The notes below the pieces were generated by a model. The model was not told the DNA's origin. It saw only the letters and a program-made list of their open reading frames with translations, and made no database searches. From a virus, in the IMG/VR virus record IMGVR_UViG_3300020205_001415, positions 1 through 47,116 of that record: DNA of 47,116 nt; one strand, given 5' to 3'. Positions 17,802-26,090 of the stretch are shown piece after piece. Every line of letters begins with the position of its first letter. The first letter of the stretch is position 1. The translations under genes were made by a program, and so were the position numbers.

Positions 17802-17830
17802 TTGACACGGGCTCAAAAAACTGTTATTAT
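17802..17830 (+). promoter_or_regulatory. Sigma70 promoter of the gp55-gp47-gp46 operon
   Basis: A perfect -35 TTGACA (17802-17807) and a -10 TATTAT (17825-17830) separated by exactly 17 bases. The predicted start of transcription near 17837 leaves a leader of about 20 nt before the AAGGAG ribosome site. This is the strongest host-type promoter seen in the window and fits early transcription by unmodified host RNA polymerase. Confidence 0.8.
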
Positions 17831-17856: not shown

Positions 17857-18729
17857 ATTAGGCACAATTACCTCAACAACAAAGACATCCTTAAAGAGAT
17901 CCACAAGAGCAAGACTACGTATTGTTCGTATTCTGCTCCCGAACATTGTGATTATGATCTGATTTTGGACAGCGTCAAAAAGATTAATAAGAAGAATATA
18001 CTGGCGGCTAGGCGGTCAAGGGCAGAGCGATTGGGCAAATTGGCCCACGAAGCTGCGGTGTTGGCCACTGGCGAAAAGCAAAAGTCGGAACAATTCGCTA
18101 TCAAATACACCAAAATTTCTCCAGCTGATGTGGTATTCCGTATCATGACATGGGAACATATACCCCTGGATACTGTTAAAACACAGAAGGCACGCAATAC
18201 TGCCAAGGAACTGTTTGACGACGAAGAAGACCTCATCCACACTGAATACGACGAGTTAGACCCTGCACATAACAAATATGTCAAAGTCAACTTCCCGCCT
18301 TTCTTCCATTACAAAGTGGACGAAGAGGGTAATCCTTATGAGGTAGGACGCAGTCACTGGAAGGGGACCGTGGACCAAGGAGTGTTTTCCAAGGAACACG
18401 GGGCCATGACCAACAAACTGGCACTCATGTTTATCAAACTATGTGAACGCTATGCTACCCGATCCAATTGGCGCGGATACACGTACAACGATGAAATGCG
18501 TAGTCAAGCATTGCTACAGTTGAGTCAGATTGGATTACAGTTCGATGAGAACAAGTCTCAGAATCCGTTCGCTTATTATACGGCCGCTATCACTAATAGC
18601 TTTACCCGTGTGCTAAACATTGAAAAGCGTAATCAGAATCTCCGGGATGATATCCTAGAGATCAATAATCTCAATCCCAGCTATACTAGACAGAATTGGA
18701 CAAGTAGCACTAGCAATCATGAGGAGTAA
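17857..18729 (+). CDS. gp55: Late-transcription sigma factor gp55, apparent ATT start
   Basis: T4 gp55 is the small sigma-like factor that directs RNA polymerase to late promoters. Here the conserved C-terminal core is clear: WRGYTYNDEMRSQALLQLSQ, KSQNPFAYYTAAITNSFTRV and LNIEKRNQNLRDDILE. The first ordinary start codon in frame is TTG 17965 (254 aa), which has no ribosome site. The frame is open upstream to 17842, and those 36 extra codons read RHNYLNNKDILKEIHKSKTT, a typical gp55 N-terminus as I recall the family. A good AAGGAG sits 7 nt before the ATT at 17857, so I place the start there (290 aa). The ATT could be genuine or an ATG misread. It is the first gene after a sigma70 promoter, consistent with gp55 being made before late genes. 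Confidence 0.88.
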   Translation: MRHNYLNNKDILKEIHKSKTTYCSYSAPEHCDYDLILDSVKKINKKNILAARRSRAERLGKLAHEAAVLATGEKQKSEQFAIKYTKISPADVVFRIMTWEHIPLDTVKTQKARNTAKELFDDEEDLIHTEYDELDPAHNKYVKVNFPPFFHYKVDEEGNPYEVGRSHWKGTVDQGVFSKEHGAMTNKLALMFIKLCERYATRSNWRGYTYNDEMRSQALLQLSQIGLQFDENKSQNPFAYYTAAITNSFTRVLNIEKRNQNLRDDILEINNLNPSYTRQNWTSSTSNHEE

Positions 18730-18734
18730 AGTAA

Positions 18735-19592
18735 GTGTCAAAAACCTTATATATTACGAATCCAAATTTTAATTTTTCTAAAATTAATAAAAATTCTTTA
18801 CTCCTAACTAATTTAGATATTCCATTAGATCATGATGAATATCATACGTCTCTAGGAGATTTGCCTGCTGAATCTATTTTATCCATAATAAACAAATTTA
18901 GTTTGGTAACATTTATTCCTGATTTGTTTATTATCGATTCAGATATATATTCTGAAACTATATTCTTATTGACATATATTAGTCATCGTGTGCCCGTAAA
19001 TAATCTTATTAAGAGTAATGTGCAGACATTTACCAATTTAGATGTTAGTAACAGACCTAATAAACCAGTATTATGGGTGTTTGGGTGTAGCCATAGTCAC
19101 GGTGTAGGTTTGCTCAAAGGAGAATTACGATACAGCGACATCATTAGTGACACTTTAGGGTTACCGCTATATTCTATCACTAAGCCCGGTAGCTCATTAC
19201 ATTGGAGCCTAAGGCACTTGACTAATGCTAATATTTTTAAAAATGATCTGGTAATTTGGCAGATAACTACGCCAGAACGTGTTTCTATCTATAAAAATAA
19301 TGTTCGAGAAATAATGCTAGCAAATACATCCGATAAGCACTTATTGGAAGTATATTCGGATGAACAGATAGACTTCAACCATTTGACTTTACTAAATTTT
19401 GGTACTAGATATTTAAGATCTAAGAAGATAAAATTTTTAATGACGTCGATTGGTCGAAGACCGTCGGAATATGCCAAATATCCTGAATATTGTTATGTAC
19501 CAAATTTATATATAGATCGCGGGGCAGACCGGTCACATGCAGGTCCTTTGAGTCACAAGAAGCTTGCTTCTGCCCTACTTGATCGTGTATAA
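18735..19592 (+). CDS. SGNH/GDSL-like hydrolase family protein
   Basis: A 285-residue protein of the SGNH-like kind, from two sequence blocks. Residues about 112-127 read VLWVFGCSHSHGVGL, resembling block I where a nucleophile Ser follows a strand. Near the C-terminus DRGADRSHAGPLSHKKLA gives a D-x-x-H pair as in block V. The first 100 residues have no recognised domain. If active it could remove acyl or similar esters from a sugar or protein, but the GDS Gly-Asp-Ser is replaced by Gly-Cys-Ser, so activity is uncertain. It starts at GTG 18735 behind a GAGGAG formed by the last codons of gp55. The gene is visibly more AT-rich than gp55 and gp47 on either side, which suggests later acquisition. 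Confidence 0.6.
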   Translation: MSKTLYITNPNFNFSKINKNSLLLTNLDIPLDHDEYHTSLGDLPAESILSIINKFSLVTFIPDLFIIDSDIYSETIFLLTYISHRVPVNNLIKSNVQTFTNLDVSNRPNKPVLWVFGCSHSHGVGLLKGELRYSDIISDTLGLPLYSITKPGSSLHWSLRHLTNANIFKNDLVIWQITTPERVSIYKNNVREIMLANTSDKHLLEVYSDEQIDFNHLTLLNFGTRYLRSKKIKFLMTSIGRRPSEYAKYPEYCYVPNLYIDRGADRSHAGPLSHKKLASALLDRV

Positions 19593-19599
19593 TATGTAG

Positions 19600-20616
19600 A
19601 TGACAAACTTATTCAAAAAAGCTGCAATATTCACTGACATACATTTTGGTCTTAAATCCAACAGTCAACAGCATAACGAAGACTGTTTGAATTTCGTTAA
19701 ATGGGCCACTGCTAAAGCCCGGGAAGAAGGTTGCGAAACAGCCATGTTCCTGGGTGATTGGCATAACAATCGTGCCAGCATCAATATCGTCACGCTGAAC
19801 TATAGTCTACGGGCATTAGAACATCTCAACGATAATTTTTCCGATGTGTTCTTTATCCCTGGCAATCACGATCTCTACTACAGGGACAAACGTGATATCC
19901 AAAGTGTAGAGTGGGCTAAACATCTTAGAAACGTTCATATCTGTAATGATTGGGTCACTGCTGGAGATGTCACTATCGCTCCATGGCTAGTTGGTGACGA
20001 TCATAAGAAGATACCCAAGCTGAAAAGTAAGTATATGTTTGGGCACTTTGAACTGCCGCATTTCTTTATGAATGCCATGGTACAGATGCCGGACCACGGT
20101 GATGTCAAGCGTGAACACTTTGGAAACTTTGAGCATGTTTTTACCGGACATTTCCATAAACGTCAGAGTCATAAGAATATTACCTATATCGGTAATTGCT
20201 TTCCCCATAACTATGCAGATGCGGGAGACGATGAGCGTGGTATGATGATACTGGAATGGGGCAAAGAGCCAGAATATCATACGTGGCAGGATCAACCCCG
20301 GTATAGGGTGTTGGGGTTGGATGCTATACTAAACAATGCTGAAAGCATATTGAAACCCGGTATGCATGTCCGCGTTAATCTAGATATAGACATCAGCTAT
20401 GAAGAAGCTAACTTTATCAAAGACACATTTATCAAGACCTATGATCTACGTGAGATCACACTGATCCCCCAAAAGAATACAGATCTCGAACAATATGAGA
20501 TGCAGGGCAATGTGGCATTTGAAAGCGTAGATCAGATAGTGACTAATCAATTGACTGCTATCTCCAGTGAGCATTATGATAACAATTTACTGTTAGACAT
20601 ATACAGGAATCTTTAA
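19600..20616 (+). CDS. gp47: Recombination endonuclease subunit gp47 (Mre11/SbcD-like)
   Basis: A 338-residue calcineurin-like metallophosphoesterase. The metal-binding motifs are in order: D-x-H in FTDIHFG (residues 11-17), GDWHNNR (about 52), GNHD (about 88), and GHFHKR (about 185). With gp46 it forms the Mre11-Rad50-type complex that resects DNA ends for recombination-dependent replication. T4 gp47 is 339 aa, so length matches. In T4 gp47 and gp46 are separated only by small genes; here a radical SAM gene lies between them, overlapping the gp47 stop by one base (TAATG). Confidence 0.95.
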   Translation: MTNLFKKAAIFTDIHFGLKSNSQQHNEDCLNFVKWATAKAREEGCETAMFLGDWHNNRASINIVTLNYSLRALEHLNDNFSDVFFIPGNHDLYYRDKRDIQSVEWAKHLRNVHICNDWVTAGDVTIAPWLVGDDHKKIPKLKSKYMFGHFELPHFFMNAMVQMPDHGDVKREHFGNFEHVFTGHFHKRQSHKNITYIGNCFPHNYADAGDDERGMMILEWGKEPEYHTWQDQPRYRVLGLDAILNNAESILKPGMHVRVNLDIDISYEEANFIKDTFIKTYDLREITLIPQKNTDLEQYEMQGNVAFESVDQIVTNQLTAISSEHYDNNLLLDIYRNL

Positions 20617-21716
20617 TGTCTAATAAATTTTGTCGGCATCTTAGCAACGGGTATAAACTAGATCTAAAATGGGATAATACTATATTGTGGAGTCCGTGTT
20701 GTTATTACACTAAAAAAGTGCCATTGCTAGATAAAGAAGTATTTGAAAAAGAACTAGCATATACTTCAAATGCCACTGGATGGTTGCCGGAATGTAACTT
20801 GTGTAGGAAGATGGAAGATAGTCAAGCAGGCGATCAAGTTTCTCCTAGACTCAGTAGTTTTAAGCGTATCCCTGTTGATCTAGACAACGGTAGCTGCGGG
20901 AATCTAGAATTAAGCTTTGACGCAAAGTGCAATGCCGCATGCTTAAGTTGTGGTAGCTATATCAGCGATACTTGGAAAAAATATGAATACAAACACGGTA
21001 TAAAAGATATTGGGCCAATCGTCAATCATGCGGCTAAACTAACCGATCAATTGATTAATACTGTTAAATTAGATCAGTTAAACGAACTTTATATTCTGGG
21101 AGGAGAGCCGTTTTACAGTGATACCGGAAATACTGTATTACGCCATTTGCATAAAACACATAGAAATATTGGTAATATTAAATTAAGATATCAGACCAAT
21201 GGTAGTTTAATCCCTGACGATGAGACCAGAGAACTATGGAAGGGGTTTAAGTCTGTTGAAATTAGCATGAGCATTGACGGCATAAAAAATCATTTTAATT
21301 ATCTACGCTGGCCGCTCAAGTGGCACAGAGTAGAAAGAACTATAGATAACCTAGTAGCGACTACTGACGCAATACTTAGTATTAATGCTACTATTAGTCC
21401 ATTAAATTTATTATACTTTCAAGATTTAGAAGAATGGGCTTTTTCTAAGATTCCCAAAGATCGATCAAAATGGCCCGATGCTCCTGTCAGGCCCAATAGA
21501 TGTATGGGCATAATGGATTTGAATAAGACCCCGCGCAGGTTGAGACAACAAATAAAAAGCATATACGGCGATGATCATCGATTAAGTAAAATTTTTACTA
21601 ACTTAGAGATTGATCCCAATTACAAAGTTATGTTTGACTATATAGAAAAACATGATAAAATACGTAGATTGGATTGGCAGAATGTATTTCCCGAAATATT
21701 AGAGTATTTTAAATAA
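20616..21716 (+). CDS. Radical SAM protein 1, twitch-domain type
   Basis: A 366-residue radical SAM enzyme. The SAM-binding 4Fe-4S ligands are Cys105, Cys109 and Cys112 in CNAACLSC, and a GGEP-type motif follows in LYILGGEPFYSD (about 160). Unlike the other two radical SAM genes, the auxiliary cysteines are at the N-terminus: SPCCYYT (Cys28, Cys29) and ECNLC (Cys60, Cys63), followed by VSPR. That order matches the family annotated as twitch domain-containing radical SAM proteins, whose substrates are mostly unknown. It is translationally coupled to gp47 (TAATG) and ends 56 nt before gp46. Low GC and this unusual position between gp47 and gp46 suggest acquired cargo. Confidence 0.85.
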   Translation: MSNKFCRHLSNGYKLDLKWDNTILWSPCCYYTKKVPLLDKEVFEKELAYTSNATGWLPECNLCRKMEDSQAGDQVSPRLSSFKRIPVDLDNGSCGNLELSFDAKCNAACLSCGSYISDTWKKYEYKHGIKDIGPIVNHAAKLTDQLINTVKLDQLNELYILGGEPFYSDTGNTVLRHLHKTHRNIGNIKLRYQTNGSLIPDDETRELWKGFKSVEISMSIDGIKNHFNYLRWPLKWHRVERTIDNLVATTDAILSINATISPLNLLYFQDLEEWAFSKIPKDRSKWPDAPVRPNRCMGIMDLNKTPRRLRQQIKSIYGDDHRLSKIFTNLEIDPNYKVMFDYIEKHDKIRRLDWQNVFPEILEYFK

Positions 21717-21734
21717 CTGTTATAGTCAAATTGT

Positions 21735-21764
21735 TTGAAACACCTCGGTGAATAGTAGTATAAT
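21735..21764 (+). promoter_or_regulatory. Possible sigma70 promoter just before gp46
   Basis: TTGAAA (21735-21740) and TATAAT (21759-21764) with an 18-base spacer. The -10 abuts GGAG and the ATG is only 8 nt beyond it, so a transcript from here would be leaderless or nearly so. It may be real, or the -10 may be a coincidence with the ribosome site. Confidence 0.35.
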
Positions 21765-21772
21765 GGAGTCTT

Positions 21773-23545
21773 ATGTTTAAAATAAAATCTTTATCAGTAA
21801 AAAACTTTATGAGCGTAGGTAACGCTACACAGGGTATTGACTTCGATCGACATGACCTTACGTTAGTGTTGGGAGAAAACCTAGACCTAGGCGGGGATGA
21901 TAGCGGTGCCCGTAACGGCACAGGTAAGACCACTATTATTAACGCACTCAGCTATGCCCTATTCGGTCAAGCACTGACTAATATCAGGAAAGACAATCTG
22001 ATTAACAAGACCAATACTAAGGGTATGTTGGTCACTATCGACTTTGAATGTGAGGGGGAGAAGTACAGAATCGAACGTGGACGTAAACCCAACGTACTTA
22101 AATTCTATGTGGGCGACAACGAACACGAAAGCAAAGACGACAACAGCCAAGGTGACAGCAGAGAAACACAGCAGGAGATCGAGCGATTGATCAATATGAG
22201 CCACGATATGTTTAAACACATAGTGGCGTTGAATACCTATACTGAACCCTTTCTCAGCTTAAAAGCCAACGAGCAACGTGCTATCATCGAGCAATTACTG
22301 GGCATTACCATGCTGAGTGAGAAGGCCGAAGCACTAAAAGAACAGAACAAGGCAACAAAGGACGCTATACAACAGGAAGAATTTCGCATTAAAGCGGTTA
22401 CTGATGCTAACGAACGTATCAAACAGCAGATTGACGCTACTAAACGTAGGCAATCTTTGTGGCAGAAGAAACAAGCCGAGGACTTATCCGCTCTACAGCA
22501 ATGCTACGATGAACTGGCTAAGTTAGATATCGAAGCAGAACTAGATGCACACAAGAGTCTAGCAGATTATGAGACTAAAGAAAAGGCTATCAAAGATCTC
22601 AAAGCGTCGATCAAACGATTTGTACAGGACCATACCAGAGAACAGAAAGATATTAAACGCCTACGGGATGAAATACAAGCCCTAGAGAATCACACCTGTC
22701 ATACCTGTGGACAAGCGTTCCACGATAGTCTGCAAGTGACAGTGTTAGAATCTAAGCATAAGTCCTTGGAAGAAACTTCCTTACAGAATATCATCACCCA
22801 GCACCAGCTGACAGAGTATACAGGTTCCTTGGCTGGGATTGGGGAATTAGGATTAAGTCCCACAGTGTTCTATAAGAATGAAAGCGATGCGTTTGAACAT
22901 CGTAGCAGTATGGCCAGTGTACTAACACAGCTGACTGCCAAACAGACTGAAGCGGATCCTTATGGCGATCAGATCCGTGAGATGGAAGAACAGGCGTTGG
23001 AAGAAGTCACTTACGATCTTATGAACGAATTCACTAGAATCAAGGAACACCAAGAATTTCTGATGAAGTTACTAACCAACAAAGATAGTTTCATACGTAA
23101 GAAGATCATCGATCAGAATCTCAGCCATCTCAATGCAAGATTAGGGCAGTATCTAGATCGTATTGGATTACCGCACGTGGTTAAGTTCCAGAACGATCTC
23201 ACTGTTAGTATAGAGGAACTGGGTCGTGAGCTAGATTTTGATAATCTCAGCAGGGGTGAGCGTAATAGATTGATTCTAAGTCTCAGCTGGAGTTTCCGAG
23301 ACGTTTGGGAAAGTCTATATCAACCCGTTAATTTGCTGTTTATTGACGAACTTGTGGATAGCGGCATGGATGCCAGCGGTGTCGAGAACAGTCTTGCTAT
23401 ACTCAAGAAGATGAGCAGAGAATCTAACAAGAGTATCTGGTTGGTCAGTCATAAAGACGAACTAGCTGGCAGGGTTAACAATGTATTAACAGTGGTAAAA
23501 GAAAACGGGTTCACTAACTATAACACAGATGTTGACGTCTCCTAA
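21773..23545 (+). CDS. gp46: Recombination endonuclease subunit gp46 (Rad50/SbcC-like)
   Basis: A 590-residue SMC-like ATPase. Walker A is GARNGTGKTT (residues 45-54). Two coiled-coil arms rich in Glu, Lys and Gln flank a zinc hook CHTCGQ (Cys309, Cys312). The signature LSRGERNRLILSLSW, Walker B NLLFIDELVDSGMD and the switch His in WLVSHKDEL follow near residues 495-565. Length agrees with T4 gp46 (560 aa). With gp47 it processes double-strand ends for recombination and replication. The last 17 bases overlap the start of radical SAM 2. Confidence 0.96.
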   Translation: MFKIKSLSVKNFMSVGNATQGIDFDRHDLTLVLGENLDLGGDDSGARNGTGKTTIINALSYALFGQALTNIRKDNLINKTNTKGMLVTIDFECEGEKYRIERGRKPNVLKFYVGDNEHESKDDNSQGDSRETQQEIERLINMSHDMFKHIVALNTYTEPFLSLKANEQRAIIEQLLGITMLSEKAEALKEQNKATKDAIQQEEFRIKAVTDANERIKQQIDATKRRQSLWQKKQAEDLSALQQCYDELAKLDIEAELDAHKSLADYETKEKAIKDLKASIKRFVQDHTREQKDIKRLRDEIQALENHTCHTCGQAFHDSLQVTVLESKHKSLEETSLQNIITQHQLTEYTGSLAGIGELGLSPTVFYKNESDAFEHRSSMASVLTQLTAKQTEADPYGDQIREMEEQALEEVTYDLMNEFTRIKEHQEFLMKLLTNKDSFIRKKIIDQNLSHLNARLGQYLDRIGLPHVVKFQNDLTVSIEELGRELDFDNLSRGERNRLILSLSWSFRDVWESLYQPVNLLFIDELVDSGMDASGVENSLAILKKMSRESNKSIWLVSHKDELAGRVNNVLTVVKENGFTNYNTDVDVS

Positions 23546-24383
23546 AATATTACATATAGAGTCTACCGATGTCTGTCAGGCTGCATGCCCGTTATGTGCC
23601 CGTGAAAGAGATCAGCTGTTTGACAAAAATATCAAGCATCATCTAACAGTAAGTCAACTTAAAGATAAGTTCAGCATAGAATTTATTCAAAGTTTAGAAA
23701 AGATGTTTATGTGCGGCAATTACGGTGATCCTGCAGCTGGTTTGGAAACTGTAGACATATATGATTACTTTAGAGAAGTTAATAGCTCCATTACTTTAGG
23801 AATGAATACCAATGGTGGTATTCATAACACCCGTTGGTGGACTCAGTTAGCGCGACGATTAAATCAACCGAAAGACTATGTAGTGTTTAGCATAGACGGA
23901 TTGGCAGATACAAATCATATCTATCGAAAAAATGTTGTGTGGGAACGTGTTGTGGCCAATGCCCGTGCTTTTATAGAAGCAGGGGGGTCGGCGCACTGGG
24001 ATATGTTAGTGTATGCTCATAATCAACATCAAGTCGACGAATGTGAACAGTTAGCAAGAAGCATGGGTTTTACGTGGTTCCGCGCTAAAGTCAGTCGTCG
24101 CCCATATATAAACGGATTAGAATTTCCCGCGGGATGGACAAATCCTAAGAAGACAGATAGTGCAATCCAATGTATCGCTCTTAAAGAGCAAAGTGTTTAC
24201 ATTGACACACAAGGTCGTATTAGTCCATGCTGCTGGTTGGGTAGTAGGCAAAAAGATTTTGTTACATTGGAAGAGGTATCTAAATCGTGGGCGACAGATC
24301 CGCATCCCGTGTGTCGAGCAACATGTTCTGGGTCCGATAATAGTTTTACAAATCAATGGCAACGAGAGGTACAATTATGTTAG
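23529..24383 (+). CDS. Radical SAM protein 2 with C-terminal SPASM-like cysteines
   Basis: A 284-residue radical SAM enzyme. The cluster ligands are Cys16, Cys20 and Cys23 in CQAACPLC, followed by CGNYGDPAAG (about residue 60) in place of the usual GGEP, and FSIDGLADTN at about 120. The C-terminal third carries SPASM-type cysteines: SVYIDTQGRISPCCWLG and VCRATCSG. SPASM enzymes often modify peptides or proteins, and use the extra cluster(s) in substrate binding or electron transfer; the substrate here is unknown and no precursor peptide gene is visible nearby. It overlaps gp46 by 17 nt and its stop overlaps the next ATG, so translation is coupled on both sides. Confidence 0.88.
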   Translation: MLTSPKILHIESTDVCQAACPLCARERDQLFDKNIKHHLTVSQLKDKFSIEFIQSLEKMFMCGNYGDPAAGLETVDIYDYFREVNSSITLGMNTNGGIHNTRWWTQLARRLNQPKDYVVFSIDGLADTNHIYRKNVVWERVVANARAFIEAGGSAHWDMLVYAHNQHQVDECEQLARSMGFTWFRAKVSRRPYINGLEFPAGWTNPKKTDSAIQCIALKEQSVYIDTQGRISPCCWLGSRQKDFVTLEEVSKSWATDPHPVCRATCSGSDNSFTNQWQREVQLC

Positions 24384-25384
24384 CCACATGGCACTTTCAC
24401 ATAGAAATATCCAGTAAATGTACCTTACGCTGCTCAAGGTGTGCCCGCCAAGAAGTGCCCAACGGTCTAATCAATACTGAATTAGATTTAGAGTTCTTCA
24501 AACGAAATTTTACTCCGCAATTTTTGCTAGATAGTGTAGAGAAGATCACGTTTTGTGGAGATGATGGCGATCCTATCTACGCTCGAGAGCTGATCCCGGT
24601 AATACAGTATATTAAAAGTGTTAAACCCGTAGAGATCGTGATAGTCACCAATGGGTCATATAAAACTGCTGAGTGGTGGGAAACATTAGCAAGATCTCTC
24701 TACGAAAATGACAGTATACATTTTAGTGTAGATGGTTATGACGATGCGTCTAATAATCTGTATCGAGTCAATAGCGACTTTGACAGCATTATGGCCGGGA
24801 TTAAAACCGTTAGGGCCAACTCTAAATGTATGATAACTTGGGCGGCGATAGCATTTAAGTTTAACGAAGATCATCTGAATGATATGCAAGCACAAGCAAG
24901 AGCATTGGGTATTGATATTTTCCAAGTAACTAAATCAACTAAATTTGGTAGTGTATATCCCAGTTATGGTGCCGATGATCCTTTACAACCTAGCGCGAAG
25001 TTTGTTAGTATTACACATAGATTCCAACGCGAGGCGATTCGTCTAACAGCTCGACAAGAAAATCCCATACACACAATTAATCTAAGACTGTACGATCAAG
25101 TTAAAAATAACGAAAATATCGTACCTTTATGTGAGATTGGAAACAAAGGGTTATATATCGATGCTAGGGGCAGATTATTTCCGTGCTGTTGGGTAGCAAA
25201 TAGATATAGTCATAACACAGAATGGCAGTCGTTGGCAGAGAAATTCAATTTGCATAATAGAAGTCTGAAAGATGTTATAAATGATCCGTTCTGGGAAAAC
25301 GAATTTAAAGCGTTTAAATGGCAAGAATGCAAGACAAAGTGCAATAAACGGGCGGTAGATCAAGAGTATGCTACAACATGGTAA
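24377..25384 (+). CDS. Radical SAM protein 3 with C-terminal SPASM-like cysteines
   Basis: A 335-residue radical SAM enzyme. I place the start at ATG 24377, 7 nt after AGAGG and overlapping the previous stop, rather than at an in-frame ATG 21 nt upstream. Ligands are Cys15, Cys19 and Cys22 in CTLRCSRC; CGDDGDPIYA at about residue 62 replaces GGEP; HFSVDGYDD follows at about 115. The C-terminus has GLYIDARGRLFPCCWVANRY and then ECKTKCNKR, matching the SPASM-like pattern of the gene before it. The two proteins share the same domain order and motifs and are likely paralogues, perhaps acting in sequence or as a pair. Substrate unknown. Confidence 0.88.
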   Translation: MLATWHFHIEISSKCTLRCSRCARQEVPNGLINTELDLEFFKRNFTPQFLLDSVEKITFCGDDGDPIYARELIPVIQYIKSVKPVEIVIVTNGSYKTAEWWETLARSLYENDSIHFSVDGYDDASNNLYRVNSDFDSIMAGIKTVRANSKCMITWAAIAFKFNEDHLNDMQAQARALGIDIFQVTKSTKFGSVYPSYGADDPLQPSAKFVSITHRFQREAIRLTARQENPIHTINLRLYDQVKNNENIVPLCEIGNKGLYIDARGRLFPCCWVANRYSHNTEWQSLAEKFNLHNRSLKDVINDPFWENEFKAFKWQECKTKCNKRAVDQEYATTW

Positions 25385-25404: not shown

Positions 25405-25833
25405 ATGGTGTGGACATACGATAATCAGCCTATAGAAACACTTCCAGACGATTGTGTGGGATTTGTCTATCTGATTACAAATACAGTAAATGGTAAAAAA
25501 TATGTGGGTAAGAAGCTCGCAAAGTTTTCTAAAACTACCTATAAGACTGTAAAATTAAAGAACGGCAACAAAAAACGCAAGAAGATTAGAAGTAAAATCA
25601 ATTCAGACTGGCAAACATATTATGGCTCCAGTAAAGAACTGCAAGACGATGTAATTAAATTTGGTGCCGAACAGTTTACAAGGGAAATACTATACCTTTG
25701 TAGGAGTAAAGCAGAATGTAGTTATATCGAAGCAAGAACACAGTTTGAAAGAAAAGTTCTAGAATCAAACGATTATTATAATGGTCAAATATCAGTTCGC
25801 ATACATGGCTCACACATCATCAATAAACTCTGA
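25405..25833 (+). CDS. GIY-YIG family endonuclease, free-standing homing type
   Basis: A 142-residue protein. The GIY-YIG core is GFVYLITNTVNGKKYVGKK (residues about 19-37), followed by a Lys-rich stretch (KNGNKKRKKIRSK) and WQTYYGSS. The C-terminal half has YIEARTQFERKVL, in which a Glu could be the metal ligand, and a conserved-looking YYNGQISVRIHGSHI. This form resembles Seg-like homing endonucleases of T4-related phages, which cut genomes lacking the gene and drive its spread. It is the last gene of the rightward operon and directly precedes the structured non-coding stretch. Confidence 0.8.
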   Translation: MVWTYDNQPIETLPDDCVGFVYLITNTVNGKKYVGKKLAKFSKTTYKTVKLKNGNKKRKKIRSKINSDWQTYYGSSKELQDDVIKFGAEQFTREILYLCRSKAECSYIEARTQFERKVLESNDYYNGQISVRIHGSHIINKL

Positions 25834-25887: not shown

Positions 25888-26090
25888 AAAGCTATCACCG
25901 GCTAATTTCGGGTGACGAACGATAGTCAACTGGACGAGAGTCTCAGGGACCGAAGACTTGGCGCTGTACCAAGCACTTAGCAACTATCCTTAACAGGACG
26001 ATGACTGGATATGCCTATGAACCAGTTTTGCTATTTGAATAGATTAGGAATAAGGCTAAAGACGTGGATGCGAATCCACAGGTTAATATA
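25888..26090. ncRNA. Candidate structured RNA, first part of the non-coding stretch
   Basis: About 200 bases without a protein gene but dense in short inverted repeats. CTATC (25892) pairs with GATAG (25921) around CACC/GGTG. AGTCT...AGACT spans 25939-25958, CTTGG...CCAAG 25957-25973, ACTGG...CCAGT 26004-26026, and CTATTTGAATAG 26031-26042. GTGGAT-GCGA-ATCCAC at 26064-26079 is a perfect 6-bp stem with a GNRA loop; read as a 5-bp stem with loop TGCGAAT it resembles a tRNA T-arm. Alternative pairings (TATCC/GGATA, ACTATC/GATAGT) suggest a compact or pseudoknotted fold. It does not match tRNA, tmRNA, RNase P RNA or a group I core by eye. Strand is not certain; a rightward transcript from the operon upstream is the simpler guess. 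Confidence 0.45.

Follow-up and report, generated by a model that had tools for sequence, protein, structure and literature searches.

Phages of the T4 type that are rich in radical S-adenosylmethionine (SAM) enzymes are already known. The T4-related Campylobacter phages CP220 and CPt10 carry 11 and 12 radical SAM genes, respectively (Timms 2010, PMC2853527), and a T4-like contig from TARA carries 12. We are concerned here with a further case, a 47-kb contig of a T4-like phage (IMG/VR record IMGVR_UViG_3300020205_001415, analysed over its whole 47,116 nucleotides and called the window below). In it, three radical SAM genes, R1, R2 and R3, and a gene for an SGNH-like protein alternate with the core genes gp55, gp47 and gp46, as a first-pass annotation had claimed and as coordinates and PHROG and PF04055 scores confirm (Table 1). 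The order, nose to tail, is gp55, the SGNH-like gene, gp47, R1, gp46, R2, R3 and then seg. The annotation had also held that phages rarely carry several radical SAM enzymes together, a statement that the above counts qualify. No experimentally established function for the radical SAM enzymes of T4-like phages was found in the literature.

The described systems share some features with this locus. A five-gene radical SAM module of CP220 and CPt10 is subject to replacement among close relatives; amidinotransferase and sugar-transferase genes accompany it (PMC2853527). However, their enzymes have just 22-25% identity to R2 and R3 and are encoded in a separate cluster, whereas the genes of the window are interleaved with gp55, gp47 and gp46, and the stretch inspected contains no fusion of a radical SAM domain to a short-chain dehydrogenase (rSAM-SDR fusion; see below). 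In the host-recognition cluster of the Pelagibacter phage Mosig EXVC030M, radical SAM genes accompany carbamoyltransferase, aminotransferase and methyltransferase genes near the tail fibres. Radical SAM cassettes are gained or lost between relatives among the pelagimyophages, the freshwater members of which are reported to be without radical SAM genes (PMC7029224). Unlike the genes of the window, those of Mosig EXVC030M and the pelagimyophages lie in the tail-fibre/VrlC region and not in the recombination operon, and they too are distant (21-29% identity). Among 50,697 deposited phage records, relatives of R2 and R3 have only 21-29% identity and R1 has no relatives. The R2 and R3 families, the slot logic of the locus and the rSAM-SDR fusions appear to be new. 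Our best overall explanation, to which we give an about even chance, is that the locus is a hotspot of exchangeable cassettes for the redox tailoring of a hydroxylated small molecule, probably a sugar.

Exchangeable cassettes between core genes

The cargo genes occupy three fixed slots, between gp55 and gp47 (slot 1), between gp47 and gp46, and between gp46 and seg (slot 3), the content of which differs among close relatives. Two sister loci, L004 and L005, are 93-99% identical to the window in the core genes. L004 is devoid of the SGNH-like gene and of R1; L005 is devoid of R2 and has a radical SAM relative of 532 amino acids in place of R1. The cassette differences among the three loci end seamlessly at stop or start codons.

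Relatives were also collected by a gp46-based scan, in which loci were not chosen for their radical SAM content. Slot 3 is empty in 20 of these 71 loci, and radical SAM genes are present in 48 of the 51 occupied slots, as against 22 of 60 occupied slots at the two other positions (nominal Fisher p = 7e-11, the related contigs not being independent). Slot 3 is all but reserved for radical SAM genes. R3, at 55% identity or more, was detected in 17 of 72 gp46-selected loci. R2 and R3 occur alone or together and their association is not significant (Fisher p = 0.098). Loci that are near-identical in gp46 differ in having R2, R3 or both (L099, L100, L101). On the gp46 tree (72 rows) the content of slot 3 changes 31 times; the mean for shuffled labels, 39.5, is not far above.

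The proposal of the annotation that the SGNH-like protein, R1, R2 and R3 may form one pathway does not survive these data: a fixed, co-inherited set of four genes is ruled out by the losses in L004 and L005 and by the gp46-based scan. The notion that R3 is an obligatory core gene was likewise abandoned; it came from a first, R3-based scan and reflected ascertainment bias, given the low frequency of R3 among gp46-selected loci. The link of the radical SAM genes to recombination genes, on the other hand, is upheld, the association with gp46 being genuine and recurrent. It had been stated beforehand that relatives with each gene inserted alone at random positions would speak against a common system. 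Lone insertion is found in part, but in fixed slots rather than at random. Taken as a whole, the locus is almost certainly a hotspot of independent, exchangeable cassettes in the gp55-gp47-gp46-seg core operon of freshwater T4-like phages. Exchange would occur by recombination of co-infecting phages through the conserved gp46 and seg walls, and the SegE-type GIY-YIG protein encoded by seg, which forms the 3' wall of slot 3 in nearly all relatives, possibly stimulates it. These slots provide natural presence/absence pairs of near-identical phages.

Besides radical SAM enzymes, the cargo includes SGNH-like and P-loop-like proteins, AMP-binding enzymes, a 2-oxoglutarate-Fe oxygenase and a DegT aminotransferase. 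The SGNH-like protein of the window has no Pfam or PHROG match and no convincing PDB match. Its relatives, five at 45-49% identity, are all encoded in slot 1. SGNH hydrolases are recognized by Ser (block I), Gly (block II), Asn (block III) and His with Asp (block V). The elements FGCS (S119), PGSS (G152) and DxxH (D265, H268) are invariant in the six sequences, and the canonical block III Asn is not evident. An abundant cargo family of 220-300 amino acids (cluster of 52; e.g. L019:5554-6351) is marked by the N-terminal, P-loop-like motif YPSGGFGHF and has no Pfam, PHROG or PDB match. That the P-loop-like GGxG cargo family might be a sulfotransferase found no backing in a PDB profile search, which gave no match. 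Between gp47 and gp46, certain relatives (L080:4081-7865; L134) encode what appears by eye to be a periplasmic binding protein of the tripartite tricarboxylate transporter (TTT) type, plus one or two AMP-binding-type enzymes. Small, probably beta-rich proteins of ~140-150 amino acids adjoin radical SAM genes in slot 3 of other relatives (L115:11997-12449, L060:12550-12972, L042:7376-7789); the one from L115 weakly resembles CBM60.

Architecture and conservation of R1, R2 and R3

R1, R2 and R3 each match PF04055 above its cut-off and have the CxxxCxxC motif, which places them in the radical SAM superfamily. The annotation had described R1 as a twitch-type enzyme and R2 and R3 as SPASM-type enzymes. 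The former assignment stands, except that the twitch of R1 is N-terminal, with auxiliary cysteines at C6, C28/29, C60 and C63. As in N_Twi_rSAM (NF033640), an N-terminal twitch precedes the radical SAM core, and R1 scores 162.4 bits over most of that NCBIfam model, just below the curated cut-off of 170. The SPASM assignment has to be revised. A full SPASM domain has seven to eight auxiliary cysteines binding two clusters, while a twitch domain has four, binding one. R2 (C215, C234, C262, C266) and R3 (C259, C277, C325, C329) each have one four-cysteine site of twitch size. R2 and R3 are therefore of the twitch type, with one predicted auxiliary cluster each, although R3 scores 23.1 bits with Pfam SPASM. 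They differ from N_Twi_rSAM in the C-terminal position of this site; R2 scores 46 bits with the model and R3 is not among the matches listed.

Relatives of R2 were found on 159 contigs and those of R3 on at least 165. The latter lie 3' of gp46, either immediately or after intervening slot genes, and 5' of seg. The radical SAM cysteines and the four auxiliary cysteines of R2 are invariant in an alignment of 72 sequences (A2). In the alignment of 60 R3 sequences (A1) the radical SAM cysteines are invariant and the auxiliary cysteines at least 90% conserved. The loss of cysteine ligands in most homologues, which the annotation had named as a possible refutation, is not observed in these two alignments. 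The radical SAM enzymes seem intact and subject to strong selection. The start of R3 is probably the conserved Met8 (24377), since most relatives have a Met at this position; the overlap of R2 and R3 would therefore be 7 nucleotides and not 28. R2 and R3 are two small, well-conserved families, for which AlphaFold (AF2) gives confident models (predicted local distance difference test, pLDDT, 92.4 for R2 and 91.2 for R3).

Dehydrogenase partners and candidate substrates

A first handle on function is offered by short-chain dehydrogenases. Slot 3 of the relatives contains 25 such genes. Almost every one either forms a fusion with an R2-like radical SAM domain or follows such a domain directly on its 3' side. 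The fusion proteins, of 564-595 amino acids (L102:9721-11478, L206:8863-10557, L154:3276-4982), are of the Rosetta-stone kind and predict an enzymatic partner. In L125 the dehydrogenase gene is directly upstream of an R3-like gene. The dehydrogenase motifs TGxxxGxG and YxxxK are kept in the slot-3 members inspected.

The same partnership recurs in bacteria. R3 family members are present in 18 of 144 Bdellovibrionia genomes, the chromosomal orthologues having 34-41% identity to R3. A dehydrogenase gene is the direct neighbour of full-length orthologues in L251, L262, L264, L265 and L266; it is one or two genes away in L263 and L250, and there is none in L249. The radical SAM islands of Bdellovibrionia (G024, G098, G124, G131) resemble the phage slots in having R3 orthologues, R2/R3-like paralogues, N-twitch and B12-type radical SAM enzymes, short-chain dehydrogenases, SGNH-like genes and a common glycosyltransferase-like family. 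They differ in being chromosomal and in their neighbours, a SIS-domain isomerase, a QueC-like PP-loop protein and a family 2 glycosyltransferase. Dense islands, of up to about 10 radical SAM genes accompanied by dehydrogenase, glycosyltransferase and SIS-domain genes, are seen in L277, L279, L280 and L276 (G124, G098, G131). No description of these islands was found in the literature searched. Slots, fusions and bacterial orthologues together turn an open puzzle into a testable question.

Radical SAM enzymes that act on sugars or cyclitols are known from the synthesis of aminoglycoside and nucleoside antibiotics, and include BlsE (blasticidin S), BtrN/SpeY and AprD4-AprD3. BlsE acts on a nucleoside sugar acid, and AprD4-AprD3 of apramycin synthesis are a radical SAM dehydratase and a reductase. 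The best solved structure for R2 is BlsE (E = 2.4e-13; ~15% identity, TM-score ~0.6), SpeY being a weaker match. R3 matches viperin best, and BlsE, MoaA and DesII are among its other matches. AprD4-AprD3 may be the closest working analogy for the pairing of radical SAM enzyme and dehydrogenase, which in the phage enzymes is one of adjacency and fusion alone.

The dehydrogenase pairing, together with the absence of both a peptide-recognition extension and space for a precursor gene, favours the redox tailoring of a small molecule, and we consider it fairly probable that R2 and R3 act on such a compound rather than on a peptide. Redox modification of a small molecule or sugar is a reasonable guess, a cell-surface sugar having been one of several possibilities raised by the annotation. 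R2 and R3, each with one auxiliary [4Fe-4S] cluster, would use a 5'-deoxyadenosyl radical that takes hydrogen from a hydroxylated small molecule, resulting in dehydrogenation, dehydration or epimerisation, and a phage or host short-chain dehydrogenase would reduce the keto product. The likeliest substrate would be the sugar of a nucleotide-sugar or of a surface glycan, although for a sugar or glycan as such we rate the chances slightly below even. Cassette swapping may then diversify a structure made in the infected cell, either a host-surface or a virion glycan, a purpose that we put forward tentatively. If the enzymes tailor surface sugars, the swapping would also be a source of new radical enzymes.

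Several observations weigh against this reading. R2 and R3 of the window have no adjoining dehydrogenase. TM-scores to BlsE, viperin and MoaA are just ~0.5-0.6 and largely reflect the common radical SAM barrel, and searches of the solved structures with R2 and R3 profiles, as well as single R1 and R3 searches, gave no convincing PDB relative. Acyl or lipid chemistry would likewise be compatible with FabG-like dehydrogenases, AMP-binding enzymes and SGNH proteins. GmhA (PF13580) is absent from all 23 large relatives (see below), so a heptose pathway is not general; it was rejected as an explanation despite HldE-like genes in G011, the nucleotidyltransferase matches being scattered. Finally, the peptide maturases SuiB, SkfB and EpeE also score well as R2/R3 folds, and because of this the fold matches of the models are by themselves undecided between small-molecule and peptide chemistry.

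The modification of a peptide or protein, as SPASM enzymes often carry out, is indeed the first alternative; it could be the maturation of a ribosomally synthesised and post-translationally modified peptide or act on a host or phage protein. Several of the weak NCBIfam neighbours are peptide maturases, anSME joins the above three among the structural matches of R2 or R3, and the Pfam SPASM match of R3 points the same way. However, CxxxCxxC lies at residues 16 and 22 in R2 and R3, leaving no space for an N-terminal peptide-recognition domain. There also appears to be one auxiliary cluster rather than two, and the pairing and fusion with dehydrogenases are at odds with a peptide substrate. The annotation had recommended looking for a conserved small peptide gene in relatives. 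None was seen beside R2 and R3, where the loci are compact, with gp46, R2, R3 and seg overlapping or 20-45 nucleotides apart; distant precursors are possible. We regard peptide or protein modification as rather unlikely.

The match of R3 to viperin led to another proposal, that the enzymes make antiviral nucleotides or serve counter-defence, perhaps against competing phages. R3 matches the PADLOC model pVip (37.9 bits), and genes for defence or counter-defence are frequent in hotspots near core genes. Yet the pVip match spans the radical SAM core only, the score with NCBIfam viperin_w_prok is 27.6 bits against a cut-off of 180, and R3 has an auxiliary-cluster domain that is not present in viperins. 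R3 was accordingly rejected as a prokaryotic viperin, and a viperin-like role of these enzymes in a wider sense seems very improbable.

Redox tailoring of a small molecule can also be considered on the scale of whole genomes. All 23 large relatives (91-343 kb) have one gp46 gene and 4-21 PF04055 genes each, the median density being 6.8 per 100 kb. A carbamoyltransferase of the NodU/TobZ type is encoded in 20 of them, and in 18 of these 20 it lies within 8 kb of a radical SAM gene, compared with a mean of 7.4 and a maximum of 15 in 5000 random draws. In a conserved second locus (L240:1259-2734, L238:2916-4391, L243:9279-10754), this carbamoyltransferase adjoins an array of N-twitch radical SAM genes, four to seven in number, as well as the gene for a conserved protein of 358-366 amino acids; the one member of this protein family tested has no Pfam or PHROG match.

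Phage carbamoyltransferases can carbamoylate 5-hydroxymethylcytosine, as described in the MetaGPA study (PMC8670742). By analogy, the carbamoyltransferase of the relatives could act on a 5-hydroxymethylpyrimidine and the radical SAM enzymes could make or modify a hypermodified DNA base or nucleotide. The location among recombination genes agrees with this, as do the structural matches to viperin and MoaA, which act on nucleotides, and to BlsE, which acts on a cytosine nucleoside. Against it, only 6 of the 23 relatives encode the thymidylate-synthase homologue that accompanies the carbamoyltransferase in that study, and this homologue scores as ordinary ThyA. Compared with 20 of 23 for the carbamoyltransferase, this means that the two do not co-travel, with the proviso that records may be fragments. 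Moreover, no Tet/JBP was detected in the 23 relatives, though no positive control was registered for Tet/JBP. Without Tet/JBP and a consistent thymidylate-synthase/hydroxymethylase partner, a 5-carbamoyloxymethyl modification of the DNA is unsupported, and the broader DNA-base proposal is improbable.

A more far-reaching version of small-molecule tailoring, which we think somewhat unlikely, assumes that freshwater T4-like jumbo phages perform a combinatorial, antibiotic-like tailoring. Up to about 20 radical SAM enzymes, dehydrogenases, the carbamoyltransferase, SGNH proteins and AMP-binding enzymes, drawn from interchangeable cassettes in dedicated slots and common to Bdellovibrionia chromosomes, would yield either rare modified sugars or a diffusible metabolite, and these products would remodel the infected-cell surface or the virion.

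Coordinates, promoters and a structured RNA

Table 1. Position of core genes, cargo genes and other elements of the gp55-seg region in the window
Feature	Position	Strand	Evidence
sigma70-like promoter upstream of gp55 (TTGACA-17-TATTAT, 11/12)	17802..17830	+	consensus match alone
gp55, late sigma factor, core gene flanking slot 1	17965..18729	+	PHROG phrog_12791, 209 bits
SGNH-like hydrolase or transferase (putative), cargo of slot gp55|gp47	18735..19592	+	motifs invariant in relatives
gp47, SbcD-like nuclease subunit, core	19600..20616	+	PHROG phrog_100, 195 bits
R1, radical SAM with N-terminal twitch, cargo of slot gp47|gp46	20616..21716	+	PF04055, 31.8 bits
internal sigma70-like promoter, R1-gp46 gap (TTGAAA-18-TATAAT, 11/12)	21735..21764	+	exact pattern expected 0.02 times per window (shuffling)
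gp46, SbcC-like ATPase, core, left wall of slot 3	21773..23545	+	PHROG phrog_77, 335 bits
R2, radical SAM with single C-terminal four-Cys (twitch) site, cargo of slot gp46|seg	23529..24383	+	PF04055, 33.4 bits
R3, radical SAM with single C-terminal four-Cys (twitch) site, cargo of slot gp46|seg	24356..25384	+	PF04055, 37.1 bits
seg, SegE-type GIY-YIG protein, core, right wall of slot 3	25405..25833	+	PF19835, 118 bits
Polynucleobacter-1 RNA, downstream of seg	25890..26036	+	Rfam RF01718, 89.9 bits (gathering 37)

The gene junctions are as first annotated, gp47 and R1 meeting in TAATG and gp46 and R2 overlapping by 17 nucleotides. The annotation had placed the whole set behind a single sigma70 promoter, which is not the case, as the 56-nucleotide gap between R1 and gp46 contains a second sigma70-like site. 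Overall, promoter-like sites number 33, close to the 26.5 expected by chance. A cargo-linked promoter before gp46 was discarded as a rule, such sites being only somewhat commoner with occupied slots (29 of 121) than with empty ones (8 of 55). A search for the late-promoter TATAAATA returned one site, below chance expectation.

In some relatives (L013, L014, L019 and others) gp46 has 693 amino acids, ~100 more, with the extra part in the divergent middle of the protein. The seg product falls in phrog_447, named 'NAD synthetase', yet matches the SegE GIY-YIG profile; the name of this PHROG looks wrong.

Polynucleobacter-1, an orphan structured RNA, is found just 3' of seg in 6 of 9 relatives searched. 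In view of this recurrence, it is, at least in part, an RNA that phages carry in the gp46-seg region. RF01718 is listed for Burkholderiales and for fresh water. Together with the apparent TTT-type binding proteins in some slots, which were recognized by eye and not by profile, the RNA hints at a freshwater Burkholderiales host.

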